Shown piece by piece: positions 2,692-8,035 of a stretch of 8,139 bases of DNA. Origin of the DNA: Fimbriimonadaceae bacterium. Lineage in GTDB: Bacteria; Armatimonadota; Fimbriimonadia; Fimbriimonadales; Fimbriimonadaceae. Position 1 is the first letter of the stretch, and each line of letters begins with the position of its first letter. The notes below the pieces were generated by a model. The model saw only the letters and a list, made by a program, of their open reading frames with translations, was not told the origin of the DNA and ran no database searches. The stretch lies in assembly GCA_019694835.1 (NCBI GenBank), contig JAIBBE010000256.1:1-8139 (forward strand), written 5' to 3'. Position numbers and translations under genes: made by a program.

Positions 2692-2961
2692 TCACCGCCT
2701 CAGCGCATTAATCAGCTCGTCCACCTTGTTGATGAGGTCCTGCATCTGACTCTGGTTGTAGCTGCCGTCAGCCCCTTGGCCGAGCGTGGCGACGCCGTTG
2801 CTGTTGTTGCTCGTTTGGGCCAAGGCATTGGCGATGGCGTTGTTGAGGTCGTTTACCGTCGCCCGTTGCTGGATGTCGGCATTGAGCGAGGTGAGCTGAG
2901 AGCGCATCTCCGCCGAGGAGTTTGGCGAGTTGTTTGCGGGTTTGGTGGGGTCGAAGGGCAT
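2692..2961 (-). CDS. 89-aa hypothetical protein with FDPTKPANNSP N-terminus
   Basis: Small, soluble, mostly helical protein of 89 residues with no signal peptide or membrane segment. It begins 'MPFDPTKPANNSPNSSAEM', a conserved-looking Pro/Asn start. I recall similar starts in verrucomicrobial and phage-associated hypothetical proteins, but from memory only. Residues ~17-55 are Asn/Gln/Ala-rich and probably helical, 56-70 form a Gly/Asn/Ser loop, and 'QMQDLINKVDELINALRR' at the end is an amphipathic helix suited to coiled-coil pairing. The start lies 24 bp after the stop of the 202-aa membrane-protein gene, so the two are probably co-transcribed. It is the last gene of the minus-strand run and is followed by inverted repeats. 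Function is unknown; a structural or oligomerising role is only a guess. Confidence 0.8.
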   Translation of the reverse strand: MPFDPTKPANNSPNSSAEMRSQLTSLNADIQQRATVNDLNNAIANALAQTSNNSNGVATLGQGADGSYNQSQMQDLINKVDELINALRR

Positions 2962-3658: not shown

Positions 3659-4783
3659 TCAGGTTCCTTGGCGGGAAACCTTCTCTCGGATGATGGAGTG
3701 AATGCTACGCATGTGCCACTGACGGCCCTCGCTCACGAGTTGCTCCCATGCAGCGTCCGCAGCCGACTGGAGTTGTTCCGACGACAGCGGAGATTTGAGA
3801 CGCCCAGTCAACTGCAAGAGCAAAGCATAGCGATCAGCGAGGGAATATACTTCGATCTTCTCGATCGCGGGAATGGCACTAACTTTCCTTGTGCGATCTC
3901 GTTCACCGAAAAGCGATGGCAATAACTCCCGCCCAGTCTCCCAGAATTTGGTTGTCGAAAGGAATATCCACGACAGTGCAGGCAAGCCAGGAACGCGAAA
4001 TGCAAAATCATCGTGGAGATCCTGAAACGCCTGCACGGCAAGCAACTGGCCACTACGGTCGAGTGATTCCAGGGCTTCGACCTCGTCCAGCAGGAAAACC
4101 AATCGCCCCGCTAGCCCCATGTGATTGAATACCCCTAGAATCGCTTGCAGAGCCTCGTTGGCTAGAAGCGGTTCTTCCTTAGCTATCCATGCTGTCAAGA
4201 ATTCGGAAAGAAGTGAGGCATTGCCACTGAGTAGGGCTGTGGCGAAATCTTGTGCAAAAGTTGGATCGAGTTTGCGCAAGAACTTACGCGTAACCTCAAC
4301 CAGGCGTGCTTTAGCCCGAGGTGGCGGCTCTTTTGATAAGGTGTTGCGCAAAGCATCAAAGCCCGACATCTCGATACCTGATTCGATCCGAGAACCACAT
4401 TGTGAGAGCCAGAGATTTTGGAGTGCACGTGCCCAAACTTCTCCGACGGAGCGATCTCCAGTCATCTGGCAATGCATGACGAGGGTTTTCGGTGCCGTGC
4501 TGATGAAGTGGTATTTCAGCAAGAATCCGAGATGGCTCTTCCCTGAGCCAAACTCACCAATGATGGCCTCAATGGAGGCTCCAGCGTAATCGGGTTGTGG
4601 ATTGTTTAGAGAGAGGAACGTAGCTGTGCGGTCCTGAACTTTTTTGAGCAGATCAACACGCCCGCCCGCTGTGCTCATGAATGCTAGCCCGTCCACCCAG
4701 TCTTGAGCAACCCTGCTTTGATAAACTTGAAGAAGTTCTTCGGCGAATTCTGTGAAAGAGAAGGTCTGGCTGCTGTTGCTCAT
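3659..4783 (-). CDS. 374-aa P-loop AAA+/STAND-like ATPase
   Basis: Cytosolic ATPase with no signal or membrane segment. Walker A is GEFGSGKS at residues 76-83, followed by H84-L85. Walker B is 'RLVFLLDEVE' with D233-E234. A sensor-1-like strand, 'WIFLSTTKFW', covers 272-281, and Arg residues in 'FGERDR' (295, 297) are arginine-finger candidates. About 145 residues lie between Walker A and B, including a helical insertion at ~140-220, as in Orc/Cdc6-like or STAND-like ATPases. The 'GEFGSGKSH' start and the 'LLDEVE' box followed by a long helix resemble DUF2791/BREX BrxC-BrxD-type P-loop proteins, but the similarity is judged by eye and family assignment is uncertain. The last ~60 residues are helical and may be a winged-helix region. 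The gene lies 54 bp after the lipoprotein gene and 64 bp before the membrane-protein gene, all in the same direction. GC content is low for the window (48% in 4201-4260). Confidence 0.88.
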   Translation of the reverse strand: MSNSSQTFSFTEFAEELLQVYQSRVAQDWVDGLAFMSTAGGRVDLLKKVQDRTATFLSLNNPQPDYAGASIEAIIGEFGSGKSHLGFLLKYHFISTAPKTLVMHCQMTGDRSVGEVWARALQNLWLSQCGSRIESGIEMSGFDALRNTLSKEPPPRAKARLVEVTRKFLRKLDPTFAQDFATALLSGNASLLSEFLTAWIAKEEPLLANEALQAILGVFNHMGLAGRLVFLLDEVEALESLDRSGQLLAVQAFQDLHDDFAFRVPGLPALSWIFLSTTKFWETGRELLPSLFGERDRTRKVSAIPAIEKIEVYSLADRYALLLQLTGRLKSPLSSEQLQSAADAAWEQLVSEGRQWHMRSIHSIIREKVSRQGT

Positions 4784-6553: not shown

Positions 6554-7357
6554 CTAACCAACGGTGATGCTCACCTCTGCGCTCCATTGGCCGACTTGCT
6601 GGTCGTCCACGCGGTAGATGGCGCGGTATTTCCATTTCGTCGGCGCGGAGGGGAATGGGGTGCTGTCGGTGTAGCCGGGGGTGGTGTCGAAGGTGAGGAC
6701 TTGCCAGCCCGCGCCGCGATCCACCTGGATTTCGCACTGGTCGAGGTAGGCGCTGTTGCCCTGCCAGCCCCAGTCGAGTTCCACTTTGTTGCCTGCGAGG
6801 CTGACTTTCAGCACGGGCTGGAGGGTGGCGAGGTCGGGGGCGGTCTTGCCTGCGCCGATGATGCCGAGGTCCTGGCCGATGGCATCCGTGTAGGTGTCGC
6901 TGGCTTTGATGTCGGCCACGGTGTCGAAGATGCGGGCGAGGGCTCCGGGTGGACGGGCGACGACGGCGGGCTGACCTCCGGCAGCGGCAGGCAAGGCGGG
7001 TGGGGTAAAGAGTGGGAGCACGAGGGCGGCGGCTCCGCTGCCGCTCTGGGCCTGCTCAGCAGCGGCGGTGCAGGCTTTTTGCCAATCCCGCACGGCGGGC
7101 AGCCAGGAGCCGAGTGTATAGACGAGCCAACGGGCATCGGCGATGGCGGCCTCGCATTTGGCGACGGAGATGCCGAGCGTGGGGGCGTGCCCGGCAAATT
7201 TGTTGCGGAGGTTTTCCAACCAGAGGATCTGATCGGCGACACGAACGGGGTAGTAGGCTTGGCGGGTCATATGCGTTTTCTTCTTGAGGGTGGATGTTGG
7301 CGTGAATGAATCGGAGTCCCAGGACTGGCTGTCCCAGCTTCCTTGGTCCCAGGGCAT
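6554..7357 (-). CDS. 267-aa protein: WDxxS repeats, helical domain, FN3-like C-terminus
   Basis: The ATG at 7357 is chosen because GGAGG (7368-7372) precedes it by 10 bases and the codons are in frame with the rest; the next ATG at 7270 would give 238 residues. Residues 3-17 are three tandem pentapeptides, WDQGS-WDSQS-WDSDS, followed by a Thr/Lys linker. Residues 30-115 ('MTRQAYYPVRVADQILWLEN') are a helical, Ala- and Trp-rich domain. Residues 116-140 form a Pro/Ala linker, and 140-180 are again helical. Residues ~182-267 ('VELDWGWQGNSAYLDQCEIQ', 'TKWKYRAIYR', 'VGQWSAEVSITV') have alternating strands like a fibronectin type III fold. There is no signal peptide. I recall similar 'MTRQAYYP'-type proteins as uncharacterised Verrucomicrobia families. 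It is the first gene of the run, downstream of a phased palindrome array. GC is high (67% in 6781-6840), unlike the ATPase block. Confidence 0.85.
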   Translation of the reverse strand: MPWDQGSWDSQSWDSDSFTPTSTLKKKTHMTRQAYYPVRVADQILWLENLRNKFAGHAPTLGISVAKCEAAIADARWLVYTLGSWLPAVRDWQKACTAAAEQAQSGSGAAALVLPLFTPPALPAAAGGQPAVVARPPGALARIFDTVADIKASDTYTDAIGQDLGIIGAGKTAPDLATLQPVLKVSLAGNKVELDWGWQGNSAYLDQCEIQVDRGAGWQVLTFDTTPGYTDSTPFPSAPTKWKYRAIYRVDDQQVGQWSAEVSITVG

Positions 7358-7437: not shown

Positions 7438-7689
7438 GGAGCCTCTTCCTGCGCTGAGGGATGCATCTCTGGCGAAAAGGTAAGAATCCCTGATGCCGAG
7501 GGAAGCTCCTGCTGGAACTGGGGATGATTCCCTCTGTCTGAGGTGACAATCCCTAACGACGAGGGAACGATCCCTCGGGCCGAGGTAACGTTACCTGAGA
7601 GCTGGGGATGAATCCCTTTCCTCATGACGCGAATCCCTCCTGCTGAGGTAAAGCTCCCTGAGAGCGAGGTAAGGTTCCCTTTTCGTGAG
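7438..7689. repeat. Array of about 12 degenerate palindromes with exact 21-bp period
   Basis: Starting at 7438, units of exactly 21 bp follow one another without indels (7438, 7459, 7480, 7501, 7522, 7543, 7564, 7585, 7606, 7627, 7648, 7669). A remnant follows at 7690. Each unit typically reads G-K-W-A, three variable bases, TCCCT, six variable bases, then GAG. Joined to the preceding AG this makes an imperfect dyad, AGGKA-N4-TCCCT. Examples are aggtaacgttacct (7583-7596, a perfect 14-bp palindrome), gagggaacgatccctc (7561-7576) and gggatgaatccc (7605-7616). The two half-sites are conserved while the spacers are not. This fits tandem binding sites for a dimeric protein, or repeated RNA hairpins, better than coding sequence. 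The units at 7501 and 7627 are the most degenerate. Confidence 0.85.
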
Positions 7690-7746
7690 GGAAGATGATT
7701 GCAGACTTGAAAAACGCCGAAATGGACGGGCCGCGAGCCGCTACAT

Positions 7747-7816
7747 GCGCTGTGCGCTGTGCGCTGTGCGCTGTGCGCTGTGCGCTGTGCGCTGTGCGCT
7801 GTGCGCTGTGCGCTGT
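7747..7816. repeat. Heptanucleotide microsatellite, (gcgctgt) x 10
   Basis: Ten perfect head-to-tail copies of gcgctgt run from 7747 to 7816 (acagcgc on the minus strand). Perfect identity across 70 bp indicates recent expansion or continuing slippage. The tract lies between the 21-bp palindrome array and the plus-strand gene, 390 bp upstream of the minus-strand start and 219 bp upstream of the plus-strand start. If it is regulatory, copy-number change would alter promoter spacing by 7 bp per unit. Confidence 0.97.
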
Positions 7817-7828
7817 GTAAGATGGCGG

Positions 7829-7846
7829 CCCCTAAATGCATAGGGG
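7829..7846. repeat. Short inverted repeat (6-bp stem)
   Basis: ccccta at 7829-7834 pairs with tagggg at 7841-7846 around the six-base centre aatgca. It lies 12 bp from the end of the heptamer tract, in the divergent intergenic region. It could be an operator or a small terminator-like hairpin; no T-run follows on either strand. Confidence 0.4.
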
Positions 7847-8035
7847 AATAGATGCTCACAAGTCGTTGCCGAAACGCAAGATATTTTTGAACAGATTTCT
7901 TGTTGTGGATCGGATGCGCTCGCGGATTCGGGCTCGGCTGATGATGCGGATGAGGGAGAGCATGAGCAGTCGGGTGAGTGAAATCAGAATGAAACAAGGG
8001 GTTGCCGGGAGGGAATCTGTCGGGCAAAATGCGCC

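Follow-up and report, generated by a model that had tools for sequence, protein, structure and literature searches.

The window, the 8,139-nucleotide stretch of DNA analysed here, carries an array of dyad units repeated every 21 bp upstream of a gene encoding a 267-amino-acid (aa) protein. This array belongs to the gene family, since an upstream array is found in 81 of the 85 family loci tested and the best period is 21, 42 or 63 bp in 70 of them. The property conserved between loci is geometry, meaning the pitch and the dyad symmetry, and not a consensus sequence. A subset of the arrays lies beside HTH regulator genes, and one pair of loci is a clear case of joint replacement of regulator and array. 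We favour the reading that the array is probably a DNA-level, many-site operator of a neighbouring HTH regulator.

The array of the window

Table 1. Array, downstream gene and associated elements of the window
Feature	Position	Strand	Remarks
Gene for the 267-aa 'MTRQAYYP' protein, first one downstream of the array	6554..7357	-	Start MPWDQGSW... common to close homologs
21-bp-period array	7438..7689	-	12 units, ~8 good; consensus AGGKANNNNTMCCT + 7 bp
Extra left half-site beyond the 12 array units	7688-7692
TGCGCTG heptamer repeat, 10 copies	7746..7817	.	Gene-distal side of the array
Conserved block CTTGCG ... TGAGCAT ... ATGCA	7836..7880	-	Common to L017 and L018

The preliminary description had proposed about 12 palindromic sites in exact 21-bp register, and the register is borne out: printed as 21-bp lines, the array shows all its units with zero indels. 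As sites only about 8 of the 12 are good, one arm being degenerate in the units of lines 7438, 7459, 7501 and 7627. Self-identity of the array is 0.49 at lag 21, 0.47 at lag 42 and 0.56 at lag 63, and among lags 5-69 the only other value above 0.38 is found at lag 64 (0.381). The pattern RGGD-N5-TMCCY repeated three times gives 4 matches on the two strands, corresponding to 3 places, and 0 in 200 dinucleotide shuffles. The perfect 14-bp palindrome reported earlier is present (aggtaacgttacct at 7583-7596). The covariation of its arms, T on the left with A on the right, holds for this unit and fails in the other four of the five left arms with T (7478, 7541, 7646 and 7667, besides 7583). Nor do the bases between half-sites vary wholly freely, as had been stated, the columns directly before the left arm being mostly GAG. 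The symmetry test on the window's own region, neighbouring heptamer repeats included, is not significant (p 0.25).

A gap of 80 bp separates the array from the minus-strand start codon (7357) of the 267-aa gene. The unit type of the window, AGGKA-N4-TMCCT, recurs in L017 and L018, the two relatives closest to the window, and is sparse in L019 and L020. Gene-distal tandem repeats of 7, 8 or 14 bp flank the arrays of several relatives as well (L020, L031, L034, L044 and L046). The conserved block beyond the heptamer repeat may be a promoter, as a weak candidate; a scan for sigma-70 promoters ahead of 74 arrays revealed no clear strand preference or sense-strand excess, and no promoter was placed.

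A 222-aa minus-strand frame spans the window array and similar frames are found in L017 and L018, as would be the case if the array coded for 7-residue repeats in an upstream ORF. This explanation is hardly credible: the chain model needs steps of 22 or 23 bp in L021, L035, L037, L038, L047, L050 and L051, the period of L039, the one copy in Haloferula luteola, is 22 bp, and the units of several loci translated by eye would give unlike peptides, some with stops.

The family of the downstream gene

The 267-aa protein has no match in Pfam. Helices at the N-terminus and an FN3-like domain at the C-terminus are predicted by the best AlphaFold2 model (mean pLDDT 87, pTM 0.57; 73-76 for the other four models). 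Foldseek with this model gives FN3 domains among its matches, for the C-terminal part only. The family counts 892 homologs at E <= 0.001, without NCBIfam match or PDB sequence match; Pfam matches are weak and limited to few members (3/20, best E 0.0023), and PHROG matches are weak too (best 0.029). A scan of genome contigs identified 44 related loci, nearly all labelled Verrucomicrobiota, with L020 and L044 labelled only as bacterium. The family is patchy: while a single genome can give as many as 20 matches (15 chosen genomes), members were detected in just 6 of 288 genomes sampled from the whole phylum, possibly an undercount since a maximum of 8 candidates was scored in each.

What aligns between loci at the DNA level is mostly the array with the gene, or just the gene, and neighbouring and downstream genes usually differ; L029 and L030 are an exception, sharing also at least 5 kb of upstream flank. 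The module formed by array and gene is found at many different genomic sites, on contigs of up to 2.7 Mb.

Two contigs of one MAG, L054 and L055, both start within a family gene and match each other over 346 bp at 98% identity; they may represent a recent duplication, able to break the assembly. Several ORFs in G001, G002, G003, G005, G011, G013 and G015 align with the family profile only in its N-terminal part (roughly positions 1-50, 'WD..W..LRWG..LEPGDPG'), a hint of an N-terminal segment shared with other proteins. In L052 and L056 the ORFs downstream of the family gene continue into collagen-like GPxGPQ repeats.

Arrays accompany the family genes

An array was called when its score exceeded 1.3 times the best of 20 shuffles. 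The score considers lags 21, 22, 42 and 63 only, which 7- or 14-bp repeats match too; repeats of this kind lie inside the stretch that was scored for at least the window, L031, L045 and L134. Loci with less than 180 bp upstream or a missing gene start (L028, L040, L054, L055, L057-L060, L116, L117 and L128) and repeat retrievals of a single place (L021, L025-L027, L029, L033, L035, L052 and L053) are not among the 85. These 85 loci are not independent, since some are recent duplicates of each other (L104/L105/L109, L108/L110, L119/L120 and L135/L136, among others) and some hold partial genes. From the 81 arrays above threshold, 79 have at least 4 units; 72 have at least 500 bp upstream.

Only four loci lack an array (L046, L106, L122 and L145). 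Within lags 10-70 the best is 42 in 33 loci, 21 in 21 and 63 in 16, and 11 of the remaining 15 have their best lag at 14, 16, 24 or 48, as expected from 7- or 8-bp repeats. Ten further loci behave alike in part: the best lag is 21, 42 or 63 upstream of the gene in 6/10 (0.64-0.95) and downstream in 0/10, with L081, L193, L194 and L196 unclear. Orthologous loci devoid of an array, which the preliminary description had named as an argument against a function of the DNA sites, are therefore not the general rule (4/85 lacking, 4/10 unclear).

In a survey of 800 kb of genome G005, the arrays with a period of 21/42 bp number five, not counting a 7-bp repeat and one array of 22-bp period; four of the five precede the four clear family genes of that stretch. 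The fifth, G005:C1:6131-6584, is a 21-bp array next to no recognised family gene. The 22-bp array, at 244975-245251, has a weak family match (E 0.004) on the opposite strand. Both are possible remnants.

Unit sequence, dyad symmetry and the choice between DNA and RNA

The unit sequence is mostly unlike between loci and among the 17 G005 copies, where shared array types are restricted to L099/L108/L110, L104/L105/L109 and L098/L110. As conservation lies in the geometry, a search for the consensus of the window elsewhere, a check suggested with the preliminary description, has little yield; IMG/VR gave 5 and 11 stretches that are apparently unrelated repeats or chance.

Dyad symmetry tested against column permutation is significant at p<0.05 in 37/81 arrays, 27 of them at p<0.01, when about 4 would be expected (mean z 2.26). 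It is strongest in arrays with a 42- or 63-bp super-period. The other 44/81 arrays, that of the window included, are not significant for symmetry, which counts against the operator reading. The 63-bp super-period of L104 and L105 holds three different palindromes, each with the same centre modulo 21. This is odd for one sequence-specific binder and counts against an operator too.

Pairing within units reaches 4129 compared to 3779 with swapped arms (79 arrays; 26 at p<0.05, 4 with z below -1.64). Because the phase had been chosen on the same data, the test was repeated on split samples: a smaller excess remains (3602 against 3427; 131 halves, mean z 0.33, SE 0.11). A cruder early count, in which unit types were mixed and L024, L034, L045, L046 and L049 absent, indicated little compensation (1163 against 1119).

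This pairing excess would suit an array transcribed as a long 5' leader, forming a string of RNA hairpins for protein binding or tuning of translation. The distance from array to start codon is short in some loci, the palindromes keep one centre modulo 21 even where units differ, and the window array folds better than its shuffles (z -3.5), all in line with hairpins. However, the antisense strand folds at least equally well (z -4.3), the exact 21-bp pitch has no obvious reason in RNA, and Rfam gives 0 matches in the window at gathering score, which speaks against a known structured RNA. Neither strand carries an RNA wobble signature: G-T mismatches number 688 against 695 expected and A-C mismatches 795 against 827, with 77 G-T and 97 A-C at internal positions. 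G-T is not favoured over A-C; therefore, DNA dyads fit better than RNA hairpins, which we regard as an unlikely account of the arrays.

Regulator genes upstream of a subset of arrays

L141-L143 have an XRE-type HTH ORF on the upstream side of the array. An iterated profile, seeded and iterated on the same loci, finds such an ORF directly upstream and on the same strand in 23 of the 72 arrays that have 500 bp or more of upstream sequence (21/51 genome copies and 2/21 others). Elsewhere in these loci its sole match is downstream of L022, and in the 800 kb of G005 its two matches are both directly upstream of arrays. Adding L119, whose XRE ORF is cut by the contig end just short of the 500-bp criterion, 24 arrays in all have an XRE ORF. 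Because the profile was seeded on these loci, 18 of the ORFs were put to Pfam (those of L048, L097, L101, L119, L120 and L137 are outside this check): 15 reach the HTH_3 cut-off, L100 and L094 are just below and L121 has no match. The same place is occupied by a LuxR/GerE-type ORF in 5/72 arrays (L037, L038, L050, L092 and L113), all above the Pfam GerE cut-off.

In total, 28/72 arrays have an HTH regulator of XRE or LuxR type directly upstream, suggesting, from gene position, matched lock-and-key control units. The 44/72 arrays with neither type count against the operator reading, as do the ten extra loci, where the XRE profile has a match in 0/10. One of the 44 is L018, whose array resembles that of the window and which has a LysR gene. 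No regulator gene is seen in the window itself, whose end lies ~450 bp beyond the array and truncates the upstream gene; the regulator would sit beyond the window end.

Do regulator and array change together?

When all pairs among 22 loci are compared, the similarity of the arrays is correlated with HTH similarity (Mantel r 0.42, Spearman 0.11) and with FN3 protein similarity (0.48 and 0.28). This correlation does not separate the HTH from the FN3 protein and counts against the operator reading. More informative are the best 14 gene pairs listed (gene similarity 0.82-0.99), which stem from few loci: HTH identity is at least 0.83 in 4, with array similarity 0.93-0.99; in the other 10 it is at most 0.45, with array similarity 0.28-0.55 for a background median of 0.32.

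L118/L119 is one clear case of joint replacement of regulator and array. The genes are 89% identical, the arrays do not align, and the XRE regions have no DNA similarity (HTH identity 0.22). Between them a 164-bp segment, composed of ~135 bp of array-side spacer and 29 bp at the beginning of the called array, is 97% identical. Linkage alone hardly explains this arrangement, because two separated segments were replaced around a conserved one. L114/L115 is a weaker second case, with a conserved flank of 40 bp. Same-genome genes that are 79-90% identical and have non-aligning arrays are found in L118/L119, L114/L115 and L097/L099, the similarity beginning near the array/gene border; L124/L125 look alike in the DNA comparison, yet their unit profiles are fairly similar (0.66). 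Conversely, L098 and L110 have an array type in common and not the gene, at the thresholds used. To judge from these alignments, whole arrays are exchanged as modules.

The recognition-helix stretch VTDQTILN is common to L095 and L149, two loci of different genomes whose arrays are similar (0.80). In L141, L142 and L143 the XRE gene and its flank have ~80% DNA identity (HTH 64-77%) and the arrays are unlike (0.19-0.39) despite the related XRE, so the array changed there without wholesale replacement of the regulator; this counts against the operator reading.

Wholesale replacement of arrays, recent tandem duplication and 42/63-bp super-periods are features also of a fast-turnover minisatellite, in which tandem duplication and template-switch correction would act in a tolerant leader with no binder; compensation restricted to Watson-Crick pairs fits template-switch correction. 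Such an origin appears improbable, given that the pitch stays at 21 bp (22 in L039) across different sequences and several verrucomicrobial lineage labels, that the arrays precede most tested family genes and are rare elsewhere (4/5 in the 800 kb), and that HTH genes lie directly upstream of 28/72.

A probable many-site operator

The preliminary description had left the choice between a multi-site operator, a nucleoprotein platform and a string of RNA hairpins. The first two together are now the best reading, on the evidence of the arrays (81/85), their period (70/85), the dyads (37/81), the HTH genes (28/72) and L118/L119, and the hairpins are disfavoured. In an operator of this kind, the HTH regulator, encoded in a subset of loci directly upstream and in the same orientation, would bind each dyad unit as a dimer. 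The two-turn spacing of the units would align roughly 10-30 dimers on one face of the DNA, and the aligned dimers would build a cooperative nucleoprotein array that may control, positively or negatively, the adjacent FN3-like gene and the genes after it. The two-turn pitch would be required for dimers, whatever the regulator type, to pack on one face. Different copies in one genome would mostly use different regulator/array pairs, and the pairs would be replaceable together.

A more specific version, which we put forward tentatively and hold to be rather doubtful, is that these are private pairs: up to ~20 FN3-like modules per genome, each with its own dyad code read by its own XRE, LuxR or other HTH protein, the two-turn pitch remaining invariant and matched exchange occurring under selection to differ from the other copies. 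The loci look like a natural collection of unlike regulator/operator-array pairs, with one geometry and a sequence that turns over. They open two questions, on the co-evolution of HTH specificity and operator and on why two-turn many-site arrays persist. They might supply tagging and circuits with orthogonal regulator/array pairs, and they offer a way into an FN3-like gene family that has no name yet.

Comparison with known systems

Cro/CI-type operators normally have 1-3 sites. The arrays resemble such XRE operators in the HTH_3 gene beside dyad-symmetric sites in a subset of loci, where dimer binding is expected; dyad sites characterise the family as a whole (37/81), with p 0.25 for the window's own array. 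They differ in length, with a median of 12.8 units and a maximum of 33, in the many dissimilar regulator/array pairs at one pitch, and in the FN3-like nature of the downstream gene.

Plasmid iterons are tandem sites at about two DNA turns whose sequence varies between systems, and parS/parC partition arrays are multi-site nucleoprotein platforms. The tandem ~21-bp sites recall both, and a module of array and gene present at many sites, with up to 20 matches per genome, could be a mobile module with a platform for its replication or partition. We consider this very improbable. Here the units are palindromic and stand at the 5' ends of genes, some beside XRE/LuxR genes, and the copies are carried by contigs as large as 2.7 Mb. 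A scan of the eight window proteins revealed no Rep domain and no ParA/ParB or ParM/ParR domain, the window ATPase matching BrxC_BrxD and weakly AAA_22, not ParA. The gene has no relative in 72,556 plasmid and 50,697 phage records, and none was found by an IMG/VR pattern scan.

A CRISPR array was rejected as well: the unit is 21 bp, both arms and the interval diverge, and none of the eight window proteins scanned was recognised as CRISPR-Cas. In type III toxin-antitoxin systems, ToxI is a locus-specific array of tandem repeats that immediately precedes a protein gene. The likeness lies in the upstream, locus-specific tandem repeats; here, in contrast, the unit is 21 bp, there is no wobble signature and the protein is predicted to be helical and FN3-like. 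REP and other palindromic extragenic repeats are described as short palindromes outside genes (PMC3733652). The present units are likewise short extragenic palindromes but, instead of being dispersed, form long in-register arrays that are locus-specific in sequence and tied to one gene family. The arrays are set apart from the iteron, partition, CRISPR and REP families. A literature search over titles and abstract openings, within limited subscription coverage, gave no description of such arrays, by which novelty is not proven.

Other genes of the window

The array had been presented as an element of an eight-gene run. It belongs to the first gene, and among the other seven only a gene for a small 89-aa protein has relatives (4/44 loci; tblastn E <= 1e-4). 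The window also encodes on its minus strand (3659-4783) a 374-aa ATPase that scores 24.9 bits to BrxC_BrxD, just above the curated cut-off of 22.2, and has no relative in the 44 related loci. Its gene is flanked by those of a transmembrane (TM) protein and of a DUF4328-like TM protein. The 89-aa protein (MPFDP...NSPNSS, encoded at 2692-2961, minus strand) recurs in L017, L030, L033 and L052.
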